Position numbers and translations under genes: made by a program
Virus record (IMG/VR): IMGVR_UViG_3300044612_003457
Location: 1-20,582 of that record
DNA from: a virus
Length of the DNA stretch: 20,582 bases
Reading direction: 5' to 3' (one strand)
In this document: in pieces, positions 5,424 through 20,582 of the stretch
Numbering within the stretch: the stretch's first letter is position 1
How the letters are laid out: each line of letters begins with the position of its first letter
Notes under the pieces: generated by a model
The model's database searches: none
What the model was told of the DNA's origin: nothing
The model's input: the letters and a program-made list of their open reading frames with translations, nothing else

Positions 5424-5430
5424 TATTTAT
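5424..5430 (-). promoter_or_regulatory. late-type motif ATAAATA before the 514-aa gene
   Basis: ATAAATA on the minus strand lies 7 bases upstream of the ATG at 5416 and contains the TAA stop of the 1259-aa gene (5427-5429). No Shine-Dalgarno lies between motif and start. Confidence 0.65.
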
Positions 5431-8400
5431 GGATTAAAAGGTAGTGTTCCATTCCATGTAGTTGTTCCTGCTGGCAATCCTTGTGTTGGGCATACAGGTG
5501 GATTTGTTACTATTGGTAATTCATATGTATTTGTTGTCCACCAGAGACCCTTTTCATGGTTTCCATTGTCTATGAAGTTTGTGATGCCTGCAATGTTATA
5601 TGTTGCTCCACTGGCATCGCCCAATCTACTTCCTTTTACATAAATTGGCTGTATTGCTTTATGTAAGAAAGTTATTCTCCATAAGTAAGAACCATTCTTT
5701 AGTTGAGCTCCAGAGAAAGCATATTCTTTTTCTCTCCAATTTATTGGAGCAAGGTACATGGTTTCGTGTACAATACCATTTCCCATAGTATTGCAATTTT
5801 CAACAACTTTATTTATTCTATAACCACTGTGTAACCATGCTTTATCTGCGCATACGCCACCCAAAGTAAATCCAGAAACACCACCGGGAGCGTTGAAAAG
5901 TGCATTCGCTCCTTTTGGATGGAATTGCGCAACTTCACTTGGATTTGTTACAGGCCAACGAGCAAGTGGACCGAAAGTTTGATTATAATTTACTCCAAAT
6001 TCAGTTCTATCTGGGTGAATAATACAAGCAACGCTTGGACTTCCCCATTGTTCTAATGTATCCATCTTGTGGAGATATGCGTGTCTAATATTTTCTGCCC
6101 AATAGTGATTTACATCACCATAGAATATTGTTGCTCCTCTTATGGATATACTTCCATCCCAATAATCTCTAACGATATCATACGTTATTCCTGTAGGTTT
6201 TAAGTAGAAATAAGGACTAATATTATTTTTATAATTTGTATCTGTAGTTGACCAAGTATTCAAAATAGATGATATTCCGAACGAAGGTATGTGAACCCAG
6301 TTTTGGTATGGCTTTTGTGGTATCGAAGGATCATTCAACCTATTTCTTTGTTCAATAGCATTGAAAACTTCTGTTGTTGCCATTTCTCGGTGTTGGCCAA
6401 GATCAGTAATGAATCCCATCCAACCAAGAGGATACCAGTGAGTATCATAATTTCTATAAATTGTACCCGGAAGAAGCGTTACTCCCGGAATAGGAATTCC
6501 ACATGGTGTGAAATAATTACCATTTGCTGCACCATTTGCAAGTCTAGCCCATTCTGCAGAAAGCTGACCTTGCGTATAACCAAATATAGCTGCACGCATA
6601 CTCATTGGAATTATTCCAATAGGACCAATTCCATCGTTTGCCTGAGTAATACCCCAAAGATCATTGAATAAGTAATCTAATGTGTATGTTGTTTGGTCAT
6701 TGCAACCAATACAAGTTACGCCAAACCCAGCAGAAATGCCTGTAAATGTTGCCGACATTGAATCTGAACAGTATATGCAGCTGAATGTAAATCCACTTCC
6801 AGAAGCCATGGTTATACCACGCCATCTTCCCGGAATATGTACTTGTTTTACTGTACTTACTCCAGTCGGCGTGCCTATAAGATACGCAGATTGTGGAACA
6901 TTTCCCCAACTTGCACCGGAATATCCATAACTATTCCCTGTAAGTGTTCTATTTCTATCGAACACTTTTCTTGCACCCATATTGTTGATCATATTGGTCG
7001 TAGCGGTTGCATCAGTTGGTGTTGAGTTCAGTCTAATATCAGAAACATAATCACCATACGGTGTGCCAGAACCCAGCCATGTTCCGTATGTGCTAGTTGA
7101 AGATCTGGTGCCAGTTTTATAATATGCCAACTGATTGGTACTATATGCAAAATCACCTTTAAAATCAAAGAATCTAAATTTATTTGGCGATTTGCCTTCA
7201 GAATCAGTTAAAGGATATAAAGAATTATAGGTCGGTAATACCATACTCAAAGGAGTTGGAGTTCCAGAAGAATCTAAGTAAGTATTTCCTACAAACGCTG
7301 CATATCCGTCTACATAACCATAATTGAATATTGCATGCGTTTCATCTGCTGTATTTCCTAACATCAACTCTTTGAATGGTGTTACTATTCCATCTTCTAT
7401 GAAGTAGGAAAGCATTTCAGTTGTAACTTCTTGGAAAATATTTTTGGTGAAGTTTCTTGGGTCCGATCCACTTACAGTATCTTTATTTGTATTCAAACCA
7501 TAATTTAAATTATCTATGTATCCTACTTGTGTTGAGTTTGTAGTGAAACCTCTCAACAATAATAGATCTCTAAAATTAGTTACGCCAGCAGATCCAAATC
7601 TGGTAGTTTTTGTAAACATGCATTTTGGTTGTGCTGATATACCAGTATAACTTACATACCAGCTATTACCAGATGAACTATTATTTTCTTTAAACGTGTT
7701 ATATTGTATGGCATAATCCGTAGTTTTAGAATTTATACCATCAGAAAGTTGCTGATAATATCCTTCATCATCTAGGGTCAACATTCCCATAGTAAACCCA
7801 TTTTGTAACATATAATTGAAAATATTTCTAGCTTCTTTTTCTACAAATGCACTTTTTCTGGCATGCCATATTGATTTATAACTAGATTGCACTCTCGTAG
7901 AAGATACAGAACCAGTTGTGTTTAAATAATAGTTAAATGCCGAAGAAGAATTGTCTACACCCTCCGCAAATTCTGCTTGGGCTCCCCACATTCTAAATGA
8001 AGATGCGAATGAACCACCAGCTCCAGAATTTCCAGAGATTTGAAATGTAATACCAGATGCTGCTGATACCCCGACCTCTACTTGGTATCTCCCCCAAGTA
8101 GTTCCCAATGTTACATTTACATTGGAACCAGATGTTCCAATTATATTGGAACCATTTACAGAAACATTAACTTGATTTCCCGCTGTAAGACCTTGCAAGA
8201 AAACGCTATATGTATATGTCACACCACCTCTTGGCAAAGCAGCAGATGTAGAGATTCTTGGCGTTAAAGATCCGGGGAAAGATATGAGACTTGCAGAAAG
8301 GCTTCCGGTGGCAACTCCATTTGGACCAGTGTGCCCTATAGATGTTACTGCCGCACTTCCAGCCAATGACCAGTTTGAATTTGAAAAACTATTTCCAGAA

Positions 8401-9206
8401 AGAATGTAATTAAATCTGAATAAAATTTCATTACCGGTGACCCCACCAGTGGTTTGATTGTATGCTGACCAAAGTTTGTTTGGTGAGAACAATCTTCTTT
8501 CTGAAGGTATCCAGCTATAACCATCTATTATGTGTTGAACAAGAGCAGTTGAACCGTGAGCAGAATTTCCCATAACAAAATTTGCAGGAGGTAGTGGTTC
8601 ATTTAAAATAGGAAATTCATGAAAAAAGTATTGGTATGAAAGAGGAGCACCAAATCCGGGCATATTATTTAATGTGCCTACACCCGTCCAACCAAAATAA
8701 GTAAAACCCGTATCTTCATTCATATTTCCAGAAGATACGGCTGCTGGTGTAGGTCCTTGGTATCCGGGATAATATGTTATATATGGATAAAAATAACTTA
8801 AACCTTTTTGGTCATTGTATTGTGTTGGCCAACCAGTAACCCCGCCCGGATACCCATAGGGTGAAGGCCCATAAGCAAAAAGAAAGTTAATTTGTGACGT
8901 TAAAGGAGCACTTCTTCTATCTGTTCCACCATCAGTATCCGTAGAATCTGCTAAACCTTCAAATTCTTGTTCAGAGTACCCCAAGGAAGCCGCGAGCGCA
9001 ACTGCTTGTGCATAGTCCATGGCGTGACCAAATTGGTTCACGAACATGTTCAAATCAGGGTTAAAGGAATAAACTAGACCATTGTAGCTGAAGCTTGATG
9101 GTGAGCTTGAGTTCCTAGATTCTTTAAGAATTCTATAATCAATTCTGTTAAGTTCATTTCCATACGAAGCCAAGAACATGTGAAGTGGGTTATAACGGTT
9201 TAGCAT
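5427..9206 (-). CDS. large tail-fibre/adhesin-like virion protein with carbohydrate-binding-like domain (1259 aa)
   Basis: The start is set at 9206 (MLNRYNPLHMFLASYG): AAGGAAAA precedes it at ideal spacing and CTAAATA lies further upstream. The longer frame to 9257 would overlap the neighbouring gene. Residues about 265-435 (FSNSNW ... YTYSVFLQGLTAGNQ ... TTWGRYQVEVGV ... FRMWGAQAEF) have the layout of carbohydrate-binding-module-like jelly-rolls found in phage fibres. Around residues 805-835 two CxxC pairs (CIYC and CIGC, 18 residues apart) could bind zinc or form disulfides. The C-terminal half is aromatic- and Asn-rich (NHYWAENIRHAYLHKMDTLE) and could be a receptor-binding or glycan-degrading part, but no catalytic site is recognised. 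Ser/Gly/Thr/Asn richness fits an extracellular fibre. It is the longest gene here. Confidence 0.8.
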   Translation of the reverse strand: MLNRYNPLHMFLASYGNELNRIDYRILKESRNSSSPSSFSYNGLVYSFNPDLNMFVNQFGHAMDYAQAVALAASLGYSEQEFEGLADSTDTDGGTDRRSAPLTSQINFLFAYGPSPYGYPGGVTGWPTQYNDQKGLSYFYPYITYYPGYQGPTPAAVSSGNMNEDTGFTYFGWTGVGTLNNMPGFGAPLSYQYFFHEFPILNEPLPPANFVMGNSAHGSTALVQHIIDGYSWIPSERRLFSPNKLWSAYNQTTGGVTGNEILFRFNYILSGNSFSNSNWSLAGSAAVTSIGHTGPNGVATGSLSASLISFPGSLTPRISTSAALPRGGVTYTYSVFLQGLTAGNQVNVSVNGSNIIGTSGSNVNVTLGTTWGRYQVEVGVSAASGITFQISGNSGAGGSFASSFRMWGAQAEFAEGVDNSSSAFNYYLNTTGSVSSTRVQSSYKSIWHARKSAFVEKEARNIFNYMLQNGFTMGMLTLDDEGYYQQLSDGINSKTTDYAIQYNTFKENNSSSGNSWYVSYTGISAQPKCMFTKTTRFGSAGVTNFRDLLLLRGFTTNSTQVGYIDNLNYGLNTNKDTVSGSDPRNFTKNIFQEVTTEMLSYFIEDGIVTPFKELMLGNTADETHAIFNYGYVDGYAAFVGNTYLDSSGTPTPLSMVLPTYNSLYPLTDSEGKSPNKFRFFDFKGDFAYSTNQLAYYKTGTRSSTSTYGTWLGSGTPYGDYVSDIRLNSTPTDATATTNMINNMGARKVFDRNRTLTGNSYGYSGASWGNVPQSAYLIGTPTGVSTVKQVHIPGRWRGITMASGSGFTFSCIYCSDSMSATFTGISAGFGVTCIGCNDQTTYTLDYLFNDLWGITQANDGIGPIGIIPMSMRAAIFGYTQGQLSAEWARLANGAANGNYFTPCGIPIPGVTLLPGTIYRNYDTHWYPLGWMGFITDLGQHREMATTEVFNAIEQRNRLNDPSIPQKPYQNWVHIPSFGISSILNTWSTTDTNYKNNISPYFYLKPTGITYDIVRDYWDGSISIRGATIFYGDVNHYWAENIRHAYLHKMDTLEQWGSPSVACIIHPDRTEFGVNYNQTFGPLARWPVTNPSEVAQFHPKGANALFNAPGGVSGFTLGGVCADKAWLHSGYRINKVVENCNTMGNGIVHETMYLAPINWREKEYAFSGAQLKNGSYLWRITFLHKAIQPIYVKGSRLGDASGATYNIAGITNFIDNGNHEKGLWWTTNTYELPIVTNPPVCPTQGLPAGTTTWNGTLPFNP

Positions 9207-9222
9207 GATTTTCCTTGTATAG

Positions 9223-9229
9223 TATTTAG
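9223..9229 (-). promoter_or_regulatory. late-type motif CTAAATA before the 1259-aa gene
   Basis: CTAAATA on the minus strand lies 16 bases upstream of the ATG at 9206, with AAGGAAAA between them. It is the only one of the nine copies with room for a normal ribosome site. It contains the TAA stop of the upstream gene (9226-9228). Confidence 0.7.
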
Positions 9230-9624
9230 TTTTTGGTTTGAGAAAGCTTTCTGTCAACCCTAGGATCGGTGTTTAATTGCAAATAATTTACTTCTGGAAC
9301 ATTTTTTACAGAAAAATTTAAAAATACTGTAAAAGATTTTAAATAAGAGTGTAATCTAGGTTCCAATTTGAAAAATAGTATTCTAGCGCAATTTTCATCA
9401 CCGAATACATTTTTTAAAATTATAAGATGGTTTATTATAAGTCTCTCTCTTATAGACTTAAGAGTTTTGTGCTTATGAATTTTTTGAAGTAATCTTTTAA
9501 TATATTTGATGCGTTTTAAATCATCAACAAATTCATTTTTTCCAGAGCACTCTGGATTAAAATAACATCTCTGACAGAATTCCAAAAAATCAGATTCTGT
9601 CAAAGGTGTGTATTTTTCTTTCAT
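9226..9624 (-). CDS. hypothetical conserved phage protein with Cys-rich N-terminus (132 aa)
   Basis: MKEKYTPLTESDFLEFC opens a short Cys-containing stretch (CQRCYFNPEC) that may bind metal. Basic helices follow (IKYIKRLLQKIHKHKTL), then SIRERLIINHLIILKNVFG and a hydrophobic run (ILFFKLEPRLHSYLKSFTVF). The pattern of a (N/R)ERLI(I/L)NH segment followed by NVFG is, from memory, shared by uncharacterised T4-like phage proteins encoded near structural genes. The ATG at 9624 lies 4 bases after the stop of the upstream gene. An alternative GTG at 9645 would overlap that gene and add 7 residues; neither has a clear ribosome site. The function is unknown. Confidence 0.75.
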   Translation of the reverse strand: MKEKYTPLTESDFLEFCQRCYFNPECSGKNEFVDDLKRIKYIKRLLQKIHKHKTLKSIRERLIINHLIILKNVFGDENCARILFFKLEPRLHSYLKSFTVFLNFSVKNVPEVNYLQLNTDPRVDRKLSQTKN

Positions 9625-9628
9625 TTGT

Positions 9629-10183
9629 TCAGTGCATGCAACCACAGTCAGAGCCTACCGAATCACCGTTATATGAAGAAGTTTCAGTAGGCAGAATAAC
9701 CATATTGACTTTGCGTAAGCCATTTGGGAGTCGCACTACATTTACAGATAATTTTAATGAATGGCCTAGCTTTTCCTTGATACCGTCACCCTGAGCGAAT
9801 CCCTTTTGATTGACATCATCATAAGGATTTTGTCCATACACTCCCAGTTGTGGGCTACCATATTGAACTAGTTCATAACTATTTTCACCGTCTTGAAGCT
9901 TACCATTGCACATGAAATCCAAACCAAAGTGGTTTAGCTTTTGCTTTACGACGCTTGTGATTCCATCCGGATCTATATAATCTCTGCTGGAAAATCCGCT
10001 TAATAATGCATTGATGGCATCGATTGAAAAGGGAAGCTTAACATTAAAGGTTCCCTTGTCTGTTAGAGCTGATGGGCCTTTTGGTGCTTGCGGATCACCG
10101 ATATAAAGACCTCCACCAAAGGTGTGTTCTGGTGCATTTTCGACAATTGTATTGATTTTTCCTAGTAGTTGTTTGAATTTCAT
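9629..10183 (-). CDS. hypothetical late protein with possible capsid-targeting N-terminus (184 aa)
   Basis: The N-terminus MKFKQLLGKINTIVENAPEH is a short amphipathic helix ending in Ile-Val-Glu before Asn16, which fits the (L/I)xE cleavage rule of the T4 prohead protease. The remainder looks like a compact alpha/beta protein (FNVKLPFSIDAINALLSGF, KLSVNVVRLPNGLRKVNMVI) and ends with a Cys-rich SDCGCMH. No family is recognised. CTAAATA lies 11 bases before the start, with GAGAGAAG in the gap as a partial ribosome site. The position between the 375-aa and 132-aa genes in the late block supports a virion or assembly role. Confidence 0.8.
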   Translation of the reverse strand: MKFKQLLGKINTIVENAPEHTFGGGLYIGDPQAPKGPSALTDKGTFNVKLPFSIDAINALLSGFSSRDYIDPDGITSVVKQKLNHFGLDFMCNGKLQDGENSYELVQYGSPQLGVYGQNPYDDVNQKGFAQGDGIKEKLGHSLKLSVNVVRLPNGLRKVNMVILPTETSSYNGDSVGSDCGCMH

Positions 10184-10194
10184 GGCTTCTCTCT

Positions 10195-10201
10195 TATTTA
10201 G
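10195..10201 (-). promoter_or_regulatory. late-type motif CTAAATA before the 184-aa gene
   Basis: CTAAATA on the minus strand lies 11 bases upstream of the ATG at 10183, just after the TAA stop of the upstream gene (10203-10205). Confidence 0.6.
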
Positions 10202-10202
10202 G

Positions 10203-11330
10203 TTAATTTTTTGTGTTTCTGTATTCCATTAAACCGAACAAATCAGAATTATAAGACTTGCCATGTAAATTTTTCAATGCTCTTTCAGCAATGTCTTCGG
10301 ACAACTTCTTCCACTTTCCGCCCTTGCTCTTGTAGCACTTTGCAGCCCAAGCATTGGCGTAGGCAGATGGGTAGACATCAAACTTTTTCTTTGCTTGGGC
10401 AACGCAAGAACTCCATTGTTTTGGGTTCTTTGGTTTGTTTTCTTCCTTCAACATTGCGCTTACTGGCTTCGCACTCCATGTCTTGCAGGCCCAGTAACGA
10501 GCCTTCCATCTTGGTCCCGGAGTATCGCAATTGTGTCTGGCTCTGAAGTTTCTGCGACGATCAGGATCATCGCGCTTGATTTCCATGTTTGGATCACCAA
10601 AGTTTACTTTTACGACATTTCCTTTGTCGTTCTTTACATAAACTTTGTACTTCTTTACATCCCCACGCATAATTTTGTTTAACTTTACTTTTTTCTTTTC
10701 TTCTTCGTGAAGCTCTAAATTCTCACCGAATTCATTTAACTCATGGCCTTCTGATGTGTCTACAAAACCCATAACGGTCTCGGGATCAAAAGACTCATAA
10801 ACTTCACAGCCCTTTTCATCGGTCAATGTTAACTTTATCTTGCTTTCATTAACCTCAATTAGGTCAACATTAAAAATTTGACCAGACTCATTTATGATAA
10901 TATCAAATGGAAGTAACTCTTTAGCTTCTATTGTCGCAAAAGATAGTGGAATGAGTTCTGTGTTTTCTACTAAGAAATAGTCAAAAGACTCTTTTAACTT
11001 TGTTACACCAGTCTCAACAAATACTGGCTTTTTGCCTTTTCCCTTTACCGATCCCTTTTTGCCTCTTCCAGCTTTCTTCTGGGCCGATCTCTTTCTTCTT
11101 ACAAATGAGCCTACTTTTTCTTTGCCGAGTTTATCTGCTTTTTGTCTGCTCAAGCACGCTGAATAAGGTTCGCCTTCCTTTGCATCACCACACTTACCTA
11201 TTCTTTCACCTTTTGTGTTGTAGCGATCCCATCCCGGTCCACCACCAGCTGATTCTTTGTTGAACCACTTTCCAAGGCCAGAGTTTGCATAAACCTTTTC
11301 TGTGATGAACTTTATCTGTTTAGAAATCAT
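10203..11330 (-). CDS. modular basic phage protein with three conserved Cys/Trp motifs (375 aa)
   Basis: The N-terminus MISKQIKFITEKVYAN has an Ile-Thr-Glu site after residue 11, like a T4 capsid-targeting peptide. Three modules follow. Residues about 20-100 (GGGPGWDRYNTKGERIGKCG, YSACLSRQKADKLG) end in a very basic Gly/Lys tail. Residues about 225-292 include VNFGDPNMEIKRDDPDRRR and ARHNC. Residues about 303-341 include WSSCVAQAKKKFDVYPSAYA and SKGGKW. From memory these motifs recur in proteins of aquatic T4-like phages, but no function is established. The middle (about 110-220) is acidic with further (L/I)xE sites. The ATG overlaps the previous stop (ATGA) and is preceded by AAGGGAAG, so it is translationally coupled to the 791-aa gene. 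A packaged DNA-contacting protein is plausible. Confidence 0.82.
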   Translation of the reverse strand: MISKQIKFITEKVYANSGLGKWFNKESAGGGPGWDRYNTKGERIGKCGDAKEGEPYSACLSRQKADKLGKEKVGSFVRRKRSAQKKAGRGKKGSVKGKGKKPVFVETGVTKLKESFDYFLVENTELIPLSFATIEAKELLPFDIIINESGQIFNVDLIEVNESKIKLTLTDEKGCEVYESFDPETVMGFVDTSEGHELNEFGENLELHEEEKKKVKLNKIMRGDVKKYKVYVKNDKGNVVKVNFGDPNMEIKRDDPDRRRNFRARHNCDTPGPRWKARYWACKTWSAKPVSAMLKEENKPKNPKQWSSCVAQAKKKFDVYPSAYANAWAAKCYKSKGGKWKKLSEDIAERALKNLHGKSYNSDLFGLMEYRNTKN

Positions 11331-13702
11331 TTCCAGCTTCCCTTATTTTGCTTTTCACCATTTTTGTGTCCATTATCGGATCTATTTGATGACCGATCTC
11401 TGACACGTAGATTATTTATGCCCTTTGAACCACCATGTCTTAAAGGCTTTTTGTGATCTATATCTTTCCCGTCGCCCTTTTTAACCTTGCCCTTTTTAAT
11501 CATCAATTCTCTGGCAGCGGTTCTCGCGGCTCTTTCTTTTCTTTGCTTTGGTTTGCCGTGGTAATTCTTATATTCTTTTTTGTAATCTCTCTCGTATTCT
11601 TCCTCAACCATATCCAAGAAGTTGTGCATTAGTTCTGGGTTTTCCAAAACTCTTACCATCACTCTTTCATATAGTCTCTTCAATATGGAATCATAATTGC
11701 ATTCTTCTGTTTCTTCAAGAAGAACGCTGATATCGCCATCGAAAAGAGAAGCTTCATCCTCTGTCAATACCCCGGCCTTTGTCATTGAAGTCAGAACAAA
11801 ATTATTTGTCAAAGCCTCAATCAGAATATCGTTGACGAGTACTTCTGCTTCTCCCAGCATCTGGGTGGTAATTTTTTCATTATTTTCTACTGGGATTTTT
11901 ACTGTTTTCTTGCCGATTCTAACATAGTTGTATTGAACGGCATTTAGATCTTTGGGAGAGAATCCCGGTAAAAGGCTAGCGTTAAGACTAAAATCATTGT
12001 TTGACATCAAATTACCGATGATTAGTTCCATCGGATTTATGGACTTGATATCGACTAAAACATCCTTTAAAGAACCCTTGGTTTCTTTTGCTTCGACAAT
12101 GGCTGTATACTTTTTCATCTTTTCTGCGGATGCTGTGTTATAACTTCCTATATTAGAAGTTGTCATTACATCTTTAGATGGTTTCATTTCTAGATCTGCA
12201 CTTTGTGCAAGAACATCGAAATATTCATCAGTCATTGGAAATACACCATTGACTGTTACAAGATGATTAGGTGCCATTTCCGGTGGAACAATGTTGTCTC
12301 CTCTGAGCATCGTCTTCAACAATGTTGAAGCTATCGCAATTTTGAGGGGTGACTTTTCGGAAGATTTAGCACCTTTCAGAAGAGATTTTCCGGCTTCAAG
12401 CCATCCCTCCCGATATTTGCTCAACGACGCAGCTGGATTCAATTCTCCATTTTCATCCAGTACTGGACCAAGATCATTTCCTTGCGAATCCTTTAATTTC
12501 ATGGATTGCAATTGTTTTGCCATGTTTTCATCTTTTAAGATTGCTGGTAGCATTTCATCAGGAATCAAAACTGTAGAAAACTTTGATGTAAGTTCTGTGC
12601 CTTGTTGTGCCAGAGCCGACAGTTTAGGATCATTTTGTACTATTGCACCATTATTTACGGCCTGCATCAATGCATTGCCCAATAGTCCTTTGAATGATTT
12701 ATTTGATTGATCAAACTGGCTTGTTGAAAATGAAACTTCACCGCCTGCGGATACTCTAAACCTATAATCACCGCATTGCATGTCGGTGGAGCCTTCTGCA
12801 TTTACACTCTTTGTTCCAGATTCTACATTTGAAACCAAGTTTTGAATGCATTCGTCTCCAATTTGAGACAAAATTTTCTTGGCTGTAAAGAATGCCTGTC
12901 TTGTAAATTCTGTTGCTGCGGGTGCTATAGCAGCATATGTTTGCATTTCTTGTTCGCCAGCACCAGCTTTGATCTTGGCCAAGAATACCAAGGCATTCAA
13001 CACCTGTTGGTTATATGGAAGATTTGATATGGGGCTAATGTTAAACTTGACGCTTAGAGCTTCATAGCTCATATTATCAAAATCAACGTTAGATGGTGGT
13101 TGTCGTGTCATCTTGAAATACTCTTGACGCATTTCAAGGGGCATCTGTGCTAGCTGTGCACCATCCATCTGTGACATGGCCTTGAAAATGTCTTCCTTAG
13201 ACATTCTCTTGCCCTTTTTCTTCTTTTCTTCGCTTTCGTCCTCTGCTTTTTCCTTTTTCTTCCCGCCCTCTTTCTTTTCTTCGCCTTGTTTTTTTCCTTC
13301 TTTTTTGCTTGGCTCTTTTGTTTTTACATCGCCAAATAAAAGCTGAGAAGCACGGGTTTGTTCAAACTTTGGGTCTTTTGTGGCTTGTTGGGCTTCTTCA
13401 ACGCTCATCTCCTCTTTGCTGATTCTGTCGTGTCTGTTTTTGTCAAAAGAATCTTTAAAGATTAATTGAACGCGACCCGAGGATGTTCTAACCAAAATTA
13501 CTTCTTTGATAAGTTCTTGCTTGGACTTCTTTTCTCTTGGAACTTGTCTTGCTCTTTCTGCACGCTTGCGTGCAGCATCCTTTGCCTTGTTGTCGGAGGC
13601 AGTGGATTTTAGTCTGTCCTTACGCATAGTTTCACCCGTTTTGGGTGTTTGAGTAGATGCGCGGGCTTCGTCCAATTTTAATATAAGATCAGTGAAGTTC
13701 AT
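11327..13702 (-). CDS. large late protein with C-terminal HNH-like domain and capsid-targeting-like N-terminus (791 aa)
   Basis: The N-terminus MNFTDLILKLDEARAST is an amphipathic helix ending in Leu-Asp-Glu before Ala13, a good match to the T4 prohead protease site. A Lys/Glu low-complexity stretch (about 125-175) follows, then a long helical central part with no recognised domain. The last 85 residues are a basic helix (KQRKERAARTAARELMIKKG) followed by DIDHKKPLRHGG, INNLRV and SSNRS. This is the His-Asn-His layout, with Asp-His near 749-750, Asn near 764 and a last Asn near 772, but without zinc cysteines. Such ends occur on other phage proteins and may nick or bind DNA. CTAAATA lies 7 bases before the ATG. 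The next gene starts inside its stop. Confidence 0.82.
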   Translation of the reverse strand: MNFTDLILKLDEARASTQTPKTGETMRKDRLKSTASDNKAKDAARKRAERARQVPREKKSKQELIKEVILVRTSSGRVQLIFKDSFDKNRHDRISKEEMSVEEAQQATKDPKFEQTRASQLLFGDVKTKEPSKKEGKKQGEEKKEGGKKKEKAEDESEEKKKKGKRMSKEDIFKAMSQMDGAQLAQMPLEMRQEYFKMTRQPPSNVDFDNMSYEALSVKFNISPISNLPYNQQVLNALVFLAKIKAGAGEQEMQTYAAIAPAATEFTRQAFFTAKKILSQIGDECIQNLVSNVESGTKSVNAEGSTDMQCGDYRFRVSAGGEVSFSTSQFDQSNKSFKGLLGNALMQAVNNGAIVQNDPKLSALAQQGTELTSKFSTVLIPDEMLPAILKDENMAKQLQSMKLKDSQGNDLGPVLDENGELNPAASLSKYREGWLEAGKSLLKGAKSSEKSPLKIAIASTLLKTMLRGDNIVPPEMAPNHLVTVNGVFPMTDEYFDVLAQSADLEMKPSKDVMTTSNIGSYNTASAEKMKKYTAIVEAKETKGSLKDVLVDIKSINPMELIIGNLMSNNDFSLNASLLPGFSPKDLNAVQYNYVRIGKKTVKIPVENNEKITTQMLGEAEVLVNDILIEALTNNFVLTSMTKAGVLTEDEASLFDGDISVLLEETEECNYDSILKRLYERVMVRVLENPELMHNFLDMVEEEYERDYKKEYKNYHGKPKQRKERAARTAARELMIKKGKVKKGDGKDIDHKKPLRHGGSKGINNLRVRDRSSNRSDNGHKNGEKQNKGSWK

Positions 13703-15011: not shown

Positions 15012-16141
<1,130 letters not shown>

Positions 16142-16142
<1 letters not shown>

Positions 16143-17203
16143 TACATCGATTTTCTTTTGCTTGCTGCTCTGGCAATTCTTTCTTCCATCTCAGCTTTCT
16201 TTTGCTTTTCTTCTTCTGCTTCTTCTGCTGCGTTTTGGGCCATCTTATTTGGATCGCCTCCAGCAATACCTGTTGGCTTTGTATTTAGTTGCTCTGAAGA
16301 AGTTCCCTTTCCTGTCATCTTTCCGTAGATATCATAGATTCCTTTGCCTGTAACATCGGCAACTGTGGTTCCCTTTTCATCTACTTCTATATTAGAAATT
16401 GCTTCACCCGCTTTATAGCCACCATAAGCAGCCAATCCAGCTAATGCACCTGTTCCAGCAGCAACGCCAGCAGCCTTTAGACCAATAAGACCACCACCTT
16501 TAAGAGCAGTTCCTGCTGCAGCAGCAGCTGTACCGAAGCCTGCACCACCTAAAGCTTCACCAGAAATATCTCTTGCAACTTCATTTTCAACGCCAGCAAC
16601 ATCCATAACTGTATCAGAAATTCCTCTTCCAACTTGATAACCTACCATTCCTGCGCCAAATCCTGCAAGACCTCTTCCTAGTCCTTTAGCAACATTGGTA
16701 ACTTTTTGTCCACCTGATGTTTTTGCTGTAGTTTGCGGTGAAGATGTGTTTGTTTTTTGTTGTCCTGAAGTAGGTGTGGTTTTTGATTTTCCTGCGGCAG
16801 ATCCGGGCTTTGGATTGGCTCTTTCGGCAGCTCTTTGTTGTTCTGCCCATTGCTTGGCTTTAGTTTCTCTTGCAATATCTTCCGGTGTTCTTGCGGGAGG
16901 AGGTGAGGGGGGTGTTTCTTTTGGCTGGGCTTTTGGAGCTTCTGGTTTTGGAGCTGCTTTCTTTGGAGCTTCTTGTTTTGGTTTTTGAGTTTTTACTGAT
17001 TCTCCTCTTGCTTTAGCTCTCTTATTTTTTAGCGTTTCTCTCATGCTCGTAGCTTGTTCTTCGTTTTGAGCATTACCTTTAACCCAAGCTTCAATTTGAT
17101 CATCGGTCATTTTGCTGATGTCTTCAAACAACTTCATTAAGTTGTCATACTTTTCTTGAAGTTGTACAGCCTTGTAGTAATAAAGTTTAGTTACTTGGTC
17201 CAT
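16142..17203 (-). CDS. Gly/Ala-rich membrane-active-looking virion protein (353 aa)
   Basis: Residues 1-70 are a charged helix or coiled coil (MDQVTKLYYYKAVQLQEKYD); Leu-Gln-Glu at 15-17 could be a prohead protease site. Residues about 70-165 are a disordered Lys/Pro/Ala/Gln linker. Residues about 165-275 are Gly/Ala-rich and hydrophobic with glycine-zipper spacing (GRGLAGFGAGMVGYQVGRG, AAAAAGTALKGGGLIGLKAA, GTGALAGLAAYGGYKAGEA), compatible with membrane insertion or tight helix packing. The end is a charged helix (AAEEAEEEKQKKAEMEERIA). No family is recognised; the layout recalls tape-measure or DNA-ejection proteins. TAGGAT ahead of the ATG is a good ribosome site, and the upstream gene ends 3 bases before the ATG. 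Confidence 0.82.
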
Positions 17204-19933: not shown

Positions 19934-19940
19934 TATTTAT
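19934..19940 (-). promoter_or_regulatory. late-type motif ATAAATA before the resolvase gene
   Basis: ATAAATA on the minus strand lies 12 bases upstream of the ATG at 19921 (3 bases before the alternative at 19930). It contains the TAA stop of the protease gene (19937-19939). Confidence 0.65.
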
Positions 19941-20582
19941 TCTTCGTACCAAGGCCAATCACAGAACCTTTCTTTCATAATATTATCTATCCACTCGTAA
20001 TAGTAACAAACTTTTATGGCTCCATTATCTATTACATTCCCAGAAGATGGATCTACACCGAAGAATGATATTATTCCTGCCAATTTTCCAGAGTCTTCAA
20101 AAATTCCGCCACCCGAATCACCATAATAAACTGAGCCATTGAGTGCAAGCATTCTCATAACTTGGCCCCCGTCTTCAATAAGAGAGCCGTAATAGCGCAT
20201 TAGACCCTTCTCGCTGACCTTTTTGTAGCCAAGGCTCCACCCAACAGTAATAACTTCTTCTCCCGGAATTAGATCCCACGGTATTTTTGAAAGTTCTGCT
20301 GGAGGTTCATAACAGTCTTCCTCTAAGATGCAAAGAACAATATCGTTCATTGGAAACCCCGGAACATATGGACTTGCTTTGTGTACTTTACCAATTCTTA
20401 AAAATTGTCCTCCATGAGTCCAAAAATATTTTGGAGGATCGTCGGACAATGCAAAACAATGCTGTGCACTAAGTATTGCATTTCTATGAATAAGAACCGC
20501 AGATCCTATTACATCACCTGATTGTGTAACTATAGCACCTACACAGGAGTAGCGGTCATCCTCAGCTAGCCCGATGGAATCG
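19937..20582 (-). CDS. trypsin-like (S1-fold) serine protease, N-terminus beyond the window
   Basis: The minus-strand frame is open to the right edge, giving 214 residues. The complete catalytic triad is visible: His in LSAQHCF (fragment residue 41), Asp in MNDIVLCILE (residue 80) and Ser in YYGDSGGGIF (residue 156). The flanking pattern (CVGAIVTQSGD, GSAVLIHRNAIL, VITVGWSLGY) matches chymotrypsin-fold proteases. A start placed at TTG 20449 would cut off the His motif, so it is rejected. Spacing is tighter than in chymotrypsin, as in compact bacterial enzymes. It may process phage proteins, serve in the virion, or act on host proteins; none is shown. T4-like phages normally use a different prohead protease (gp21), so this is an extra protease. 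Confidence 0.88.
   Translation of the reverse strand, partial: DSIGLAEDDRYSCVGAIVTQSGDVIGSAVLIHRNAILSAQHCFALSDDPPKYFWTHGGQFLRIGKVHKASPYVPGFPMNDIVLCILEEDCYEPPAELSKIPWDLIPGEEVITVGWSLGYKKVSEKGLMRYYGSLIEDGGQVMRMLALNGSVYYGDSGGGIFEDSGKLAGIISFFGVDPSSGNVIDNGAIKVCYYYEWIDNIMKERFCDWPWYEE

Follow-up and report, generated by a model that had tools for sequence, protein, structure and literature searches.

The window, that is, the whole stretch of DNA analysed, is an IMG/VR virus record of 20,582 bases, and its minus strand carries at 5427-9206 a long gene, for which the following features were defined:

5427..9206, minus strand: whole gene, 1259 aa (P0001); a single open reading frame, with a full-length relative, L001, that is 94% identical
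9217..9229, minus strand: late-promoter-like element CTAAATACTATAC of the T4/cyanophage type, 10 nt upstream of the ATG
8913..9206, minus strand: N-terminal domain (putative anchor), residues 1-98, almost without variation among the five sequences closest to one another
9117..9128, minus strand: LKE/S, prohead-protease-like site, residues 27-30; candidate cleavage site, by motif only
8421..8885, minus strand: core module, first part, residues 108-262, from the core-module profile match
7890..8420, minus strand: jelly-roll (CBM4/22-like) insert, residues 263-439, from alignment, profile and AlphaFold/VIA-align
5727..7889, minus strand: core module, second part, residues 440-1160, from the core-module profile and conservation
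7764..7772, minus strand: D479-D480-E481, candidate catalytic motif, in 17/17 modules and aligned to the D-x-E of a 480-aa family
6702..6779, minus strand: two CxxC pairs, residues 810-835 (CIYC 810-813, CIGC 832-835)
6429..6443, minus strand: THWYP motif, residues 922-926, with W924, Y925 and P926 invariant in 17 modules
6081..6095, minus strand: E1038-N-x-R-H1042 motif, with E, R and H in 17/17 modules, aligned to YYYE(L/M)(V/I)(R/K)H of the 480-aa family
5430..5726, minus strand: C-terminal beta-sandwich-like region, residues 1161-1259, from strands modelled at pLDDT about 60-75 (model 1)

As for the start of the gene, the reading frame opens at the ATG at 9206; a longer form from a TTG at 9257 is less likely, because the aligned relatives begin at the same ATG, preceded by the conserved promoter-like element and AAGGA. 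The element MTAAATANTATAC precedes all of the 11 starts read, and it resembles NATAAATA/TATAAATA, the late promoters of T4/cyanophages described in an excerpt of PMC2984593; the window holds one match to the promoter-like element versus 0 expected from 100 shuffles. Its position 10 nt upstream of the gene agrees with the earlier note on this DNA, which had taken the product for a late protein. The same note called the protein Ser/Gly/Asn-rich, which is correct (G 135, S 118 and N 101 of 1259 residues), threonine being equally abundant (T 118); its aromatic, His- and Asp-rich motifs are real as regards the conserved DDE, THWYP and ENxRH, but across the whole protein neither His (21) nor Asp (48) is abundant. 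Comparison of the window with L001 (dS 0.246, dN 0.033) clearly points to purifying selection.

Regarding its origin, the window appears to come from an uncultured T4-like bacteriophage. A T4-type capsid gene and a prohead protease gene are absent from this 20.6-kb fragment; the one record having both is the relative G006 (135,768 bases), which encodes T4-type Gp23 (E 2.4e-135) and the gp21-type prohead protease Peptidase_S77 (E 3.2e-39). A DUF7207 gene occurs in all 12 records examined and lies, in the window, directly upstream of the 1259-aa gene; psbA occurs in none of the 12, so that there is no sign of a cyanophage, although 11 of them are under 60 kb. In marine T4-like pelagimyophages, carbohydrate-binding and host-recognition proteins are kept in the structural region, according to part of PMC7029224. 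Elsewhere in the window, the 376-aa protein at 15012-16142 has a long Ala-Pro-rich repeat tract, and 19937-20581 is a contig-edge fragment of a trypsin-like protease (Pfam E 1.5e-6).

Core module, jelly-roll insert and the 480-aa family

The "large C-terminal half" of the earlier note is an unfamiliar family, as claimed, but it does not stand apart as a half: the jelly roll splits a single module made up of residues about 108-262 and 440-1259. This core module of about 980 residues wraps around the insert, and its profile matches on both sides, from about residue 108 to 1254. The large module had no meaningful family match in Pfam, PHROGs or NCBIfam, and PDB searches using profiles of the core, of its parts and of the 480-aa family returned nothing meaningful (best rows E 0.2-1.6, unrelated proteins); that no family was recognised from the letters thus holds for the large part, which is a family without annotation. 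Term searches of the open-access literature gave no paper recognised as describing it.

Scans with the whole module or its parts found it encoded in 11 other IMG/VR contigs, with either one copy in a protein or tandem copies within ORFs of 1977-3156 aa. Single copies are seen in L002/L003, two tandem genes of 1247 and 1055 aa, and in L004, a single gene of 1075 aa; two tandem modules within one of the long ORFs occur in L012/L013, L014, L015, L019, L020 and L021. A tblastn search of 50,697 phage records with three members of the module family gave zero relatives, and in bacterial and archaeal genomes no relative was confirmed. The alignment comprised 17 modules, duplicates excluded, and all 17 keep D479, D480, E481, D605, D750, E1038, N1039, R1041 and H1042, among others. 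E1148, although E in 15/17 modules (Q in 2) and catalytic in appearance, was rejected as a catalytic residue because it is not kept in the 480-aa family. The Q occurs in the first modules of two tandem pairs (L014:3216-6041 and L021:7920-10709).

The 480-aa family is about half the size of the core, more widespread, encoded beside the giant ORFs and likewise unannotated, and it is homologous to the core over both parts. In profile-profile comparison, the second part of the core matched it with probability 97.4, E 1.6e-11 and score 99.3, and the first part gave a weak but co-linear match (E 9e-4, probability 22.9, score 36.8); the maximum scores in column shuffles (n=60) were 25.9 and 25.6, respectively. 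Since both observed scores exceed the maxima of the 60 shuffles, the core and the 480-aa family appear to be of one kind, a view well supported where the second part is concerned and moderately so in the case of the first. Common to both are the invariant Glu in D-D-E/D-x-E and an E-x-x-R/K-H motif; in the 480-aa family, the D-x-E Glu and the E and H of YYYE(L/M)(V/I)(R/K)H are each found in 10/10 members. One gene of this family (L057:4947-6397) is split over three overlapping frames, by decay or sequencing error.

As for the jelly roll, alignment, profile and AlphaFold/VIA-align locate it at residues about 263-439, in good agreement with the 265-435 given earlier, and it is present in 3/17 modules: those of the window, L001 and the first copy of L002. 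VIA-align scores included those with CBA120 tailspike TSP4 (Z 12.4), CBM4-2 (Z 12.2, with an rmsd of 3.0 over 140 residues, at a local pLDDT of only about 54-72) and K2-2 TSP (Z 11.9), while CBM4, CBM22, CBM61 and CBM16 modules and phage tailspike jelly rolls also matched with Z about 10-12. The insert had no Pfam match; a profile of six such jelly rolls matched the phage baseplate proteins gp45/gp46 with E about 2e-5, the best stretch covering only 29 profile positions around WGxQ, and CBM4-2 (1k42) weakly, with E 0.0044. NCBIfam GTA_spike_fiber recognises a related jelly roll in L021 (E 3.9e-14) but not the window's own, for which E values up to 1 were considered. Both the head spike fibre and the tail fibre of RcGTA bind capsular polysaccharide, as part of PMC10218006 describes. 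Profile and model comparisons support its assignment as a carbohydrate-binding-like module, a part that is ordinary for phages.

Some of the related giant ORFs, and genes next to them, contain further jelly rolls. The 480-aa family domain of L054 is interrupted by one related to the window's, at a different position, and in the same place as L054 an insert of comparable length, without a jelly-roll match, is found in L055; the enzyme-like domains interrupted by inserts are those of L054:8472-11510, L055:9263-11527 and L056:2499-5783.

Cysteines and the putative fold

The two CxxC pairs, CIYC (810-813) and CIGC (832-835), have 18 residues between them, as the earlier note said. They are more than an effect of composition: when the composition was shuffled 20,000 times, 35 shuffles had at least two CxxC and none had the exact x18 spacing (0/20,000). 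This spacing is what speaks for an extracellular fibre with a zinc ribbon, the meaning that the note had given to it; against it stands conservation, because the complete set of four Cys is kept in only 2/17 modules, that of the window and the 94% identical one of L001. Taken singly, C810 is kept in 9 of the 17 aligned modules, C813 in 17, C832 in 3 and C835 in 8, in an alignment region that gaps make uncertain. The zinc ribbon was rejected on these grounds, and we regard it as highly improbable. The conserved cysteines are instead C813 and C1119 (17/17) and C902 and C1138 (16/17), which fits disulfides or local stabilisation better; the cysteines would thus serve as disulfides or local stabilisers.

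The AlphaFold models of the protein are poor (pLDDT 36 and 41). In the structure comparison with model 2, the best barrel reached Z 6.6 among the matches listed, below the 7-8 that the tool typically gives when a model has no clear match; the listed matches covering the N-terminal half are all what we take to be (beta/alpha)8-barrel enzymes, beta-galactosidases first, and the C-terminal part gave Ig-like/beta-sandwich matches with Z about 4-5. Foldseek with the model gave no PDB match with E below 0.4 and no significant one in BFVD, and a barrel drawn from Foldseek alone was rejected. The core is described here as a putative (beta/alpha)8 barrel.

Another candidate concerned the giant ORFs, in which a heparinase II/III-like HxHxD...GYKVILMDCG...GHN motif, a weak likeness, was seen in the C-terminal part or in a separate ORF (L012:9051-12470, L015:9018-12593, L020:14350-17166). 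A heparinase II/III reading of that part was rejected, as it rested on inspection by eye and one Pfam match below the cut-off (E 0.041); with whole giant ORFs, no heparinase was found in the Pfam scan or in NCBIfam.

Putative anchor, possible virion location and proposed function

The N-terminal domain is not confined to this protein. In L050-L052 it stands at the start of another kind of enzyme-like protein (E about 1e-31), and it occurs as short separate ORFs beside enzyme-like genes in L047, L048, L055 and L057, just upstream of them in L047, L055 and L057 (E about 1e-21); it therefore behaves as an exchangeable unit. The same swapping of anchors between bodies is described for receptor-binding proteins in an excerpt of PMC10684548.

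On balance, we favour, with modest confidence, a late virion protein with an anchor, a putative barrel module and a CBM-like insert, which would bind a surface polysaccharide and probably cut it. In favour are the jelly-roll likeness, the enzyme-like conservation of the core, its profile match to the 480-aa family, the barrel matches of model 2, the setting among a weak heparinase-like motif and further jelly rolls, and the swapped anchor; against are the poor models, the low Z of the barrel, the empty Foldseek result, the lack of any glycosidase match by sequence and the loss of E1148 in the 480-aa family. The conserved 98-residue N-terminal domain would attach the protein to the particle, and the large module, which probably folds as a (beta/alpha)8 barrel followed by a C-terminal beta-sandwich, would act on a glycan through E481 of DDE/D-x-E, possibly assisted by E1038 and H1042; the CBM4/22-like jelly roll would sit in a loop of the core module and hold the same glycan. 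The core appears more enzyme-like than a plain fibre would be, and its family is probably a carbohydrate-active one. A tail location is assumed here just as the more usual case.

The protein could instead be an adhesin without catalysis, much as the earlier note saw it, in which the large module merely binds a glycan or a protein and the CBM-like insert adds avidity; the jelly roll by itself is well supported, no enzyme family was recognised, and tandem and giant copies would suit avidity, but the acidic residues invariant in two diverged families (17/17 and 10/10) are hard to explain by binding alone, and this account appears rather unlikely. The site of the protein on the particle raises a different alternative, for parts of PMC9026906 and PMC9958956 describe that in T4 gp21 cuts head proteins C-terminal to a Glu after a short motif, and that short N-terminal peptides direct proteins to the head. 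By analogy, the N-terminal 29 residues would be a capsid-targeting propeptide cut by a gp21-type protease, with the protein in or on the capsid. An [IL]xE followed by S/N/A/T was read by eye just before the YNGL motif, at the same place, in 10/11 anchors, and [IL]xE[ASGNKR] near the N-terminus is found in 6/17 window genes versus 44/610 interior stretches, so that a head location deserves to be kept in view; the Gp23 and Peptidase_S77 of G006 and the likeness of the L021 jelly roll to a GTA head-spike domain agree with it. However, the giant clade-2 proteins have no anchor, T4 targeting needs about 10 residues (part of PMC9026906) and glycan domains are commoner on tails; the capsid reading appears quite unlikely. 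A bolder combination of these ideas is offered as speculation and seems improbable: the module would found a new glycoside hydrolase family, from uncultured T4-like phages, that has carbohydrate-binding jelly rolls in loops of its catalytic domain, the propeptide being cut by the head protease and the enzyme carried with the capsid rather than on the tail.

The window genes at 9629-10183, 10203-11330, 11327-13702, 15012-16142 and 16142-17203 begin with short peptides that resemble T4 capsid-targeting propeptides, in which [IL]xE precedes a small or basic residue. In contig G003, L041 has a run of proteins beginning MNYLTNYYKNLCEQLQEQ; its overlapping ORFs at about 7600-12400 have an unusual composition, and this stretch may be foreign or misassembled.

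Comparison with known systems

Returning to the polysaccharide-binding and probably cutting protein that we prefer, the closest parallels are with glycan-active proteins. The first half of model 2 may share the arrangement of (beta/alpha)8-barrel glycoside hydrolases (Z up to 6.6, below the noise guide and in a low-confidence model), presumably of the GH35/GH42 beta-galactosidase, GH5, GH53 and GH26 types. The core shares with these enzymes a D-x-E type glutamate and differs from them in lacking a sequence match, none of the glycosidase families in Pfam and NCBIfam being matched. The motif common to the two diverged families offers a direct target for mutation.

The jelly roll has the same fold as CBM4/CBM22 modules and the tailspike jelly rolls of CBA120 TSP4 and K2-2 TSP (window residues about 262-416, Z about 12), with an identity under 20% among the matches listed; unlike these, it lies inside another module and not beside it. 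Together with the exchangeable anchor, inserted jelly rolls suggest how such phages may retarget surface glycans.

Finally, if the enzyme reading is true, the family would be a source of depolymerases from phages with no relative of the protein among the 50,697 phage records, and one that departs from the beta-helix architecture prevailing among the phage depolymerases known so far, as an excerpt of PMC11326577 indicates. There, of the 984 folds detected by DepoScope in phage depolymerases, 85.8% were beta-helices, 12.1% propellers and 1.0% TIM barrels; the window protein likely has a role like that of these catalogued enzymes, whereas its putative barrel would be of a fold that is rare among them.
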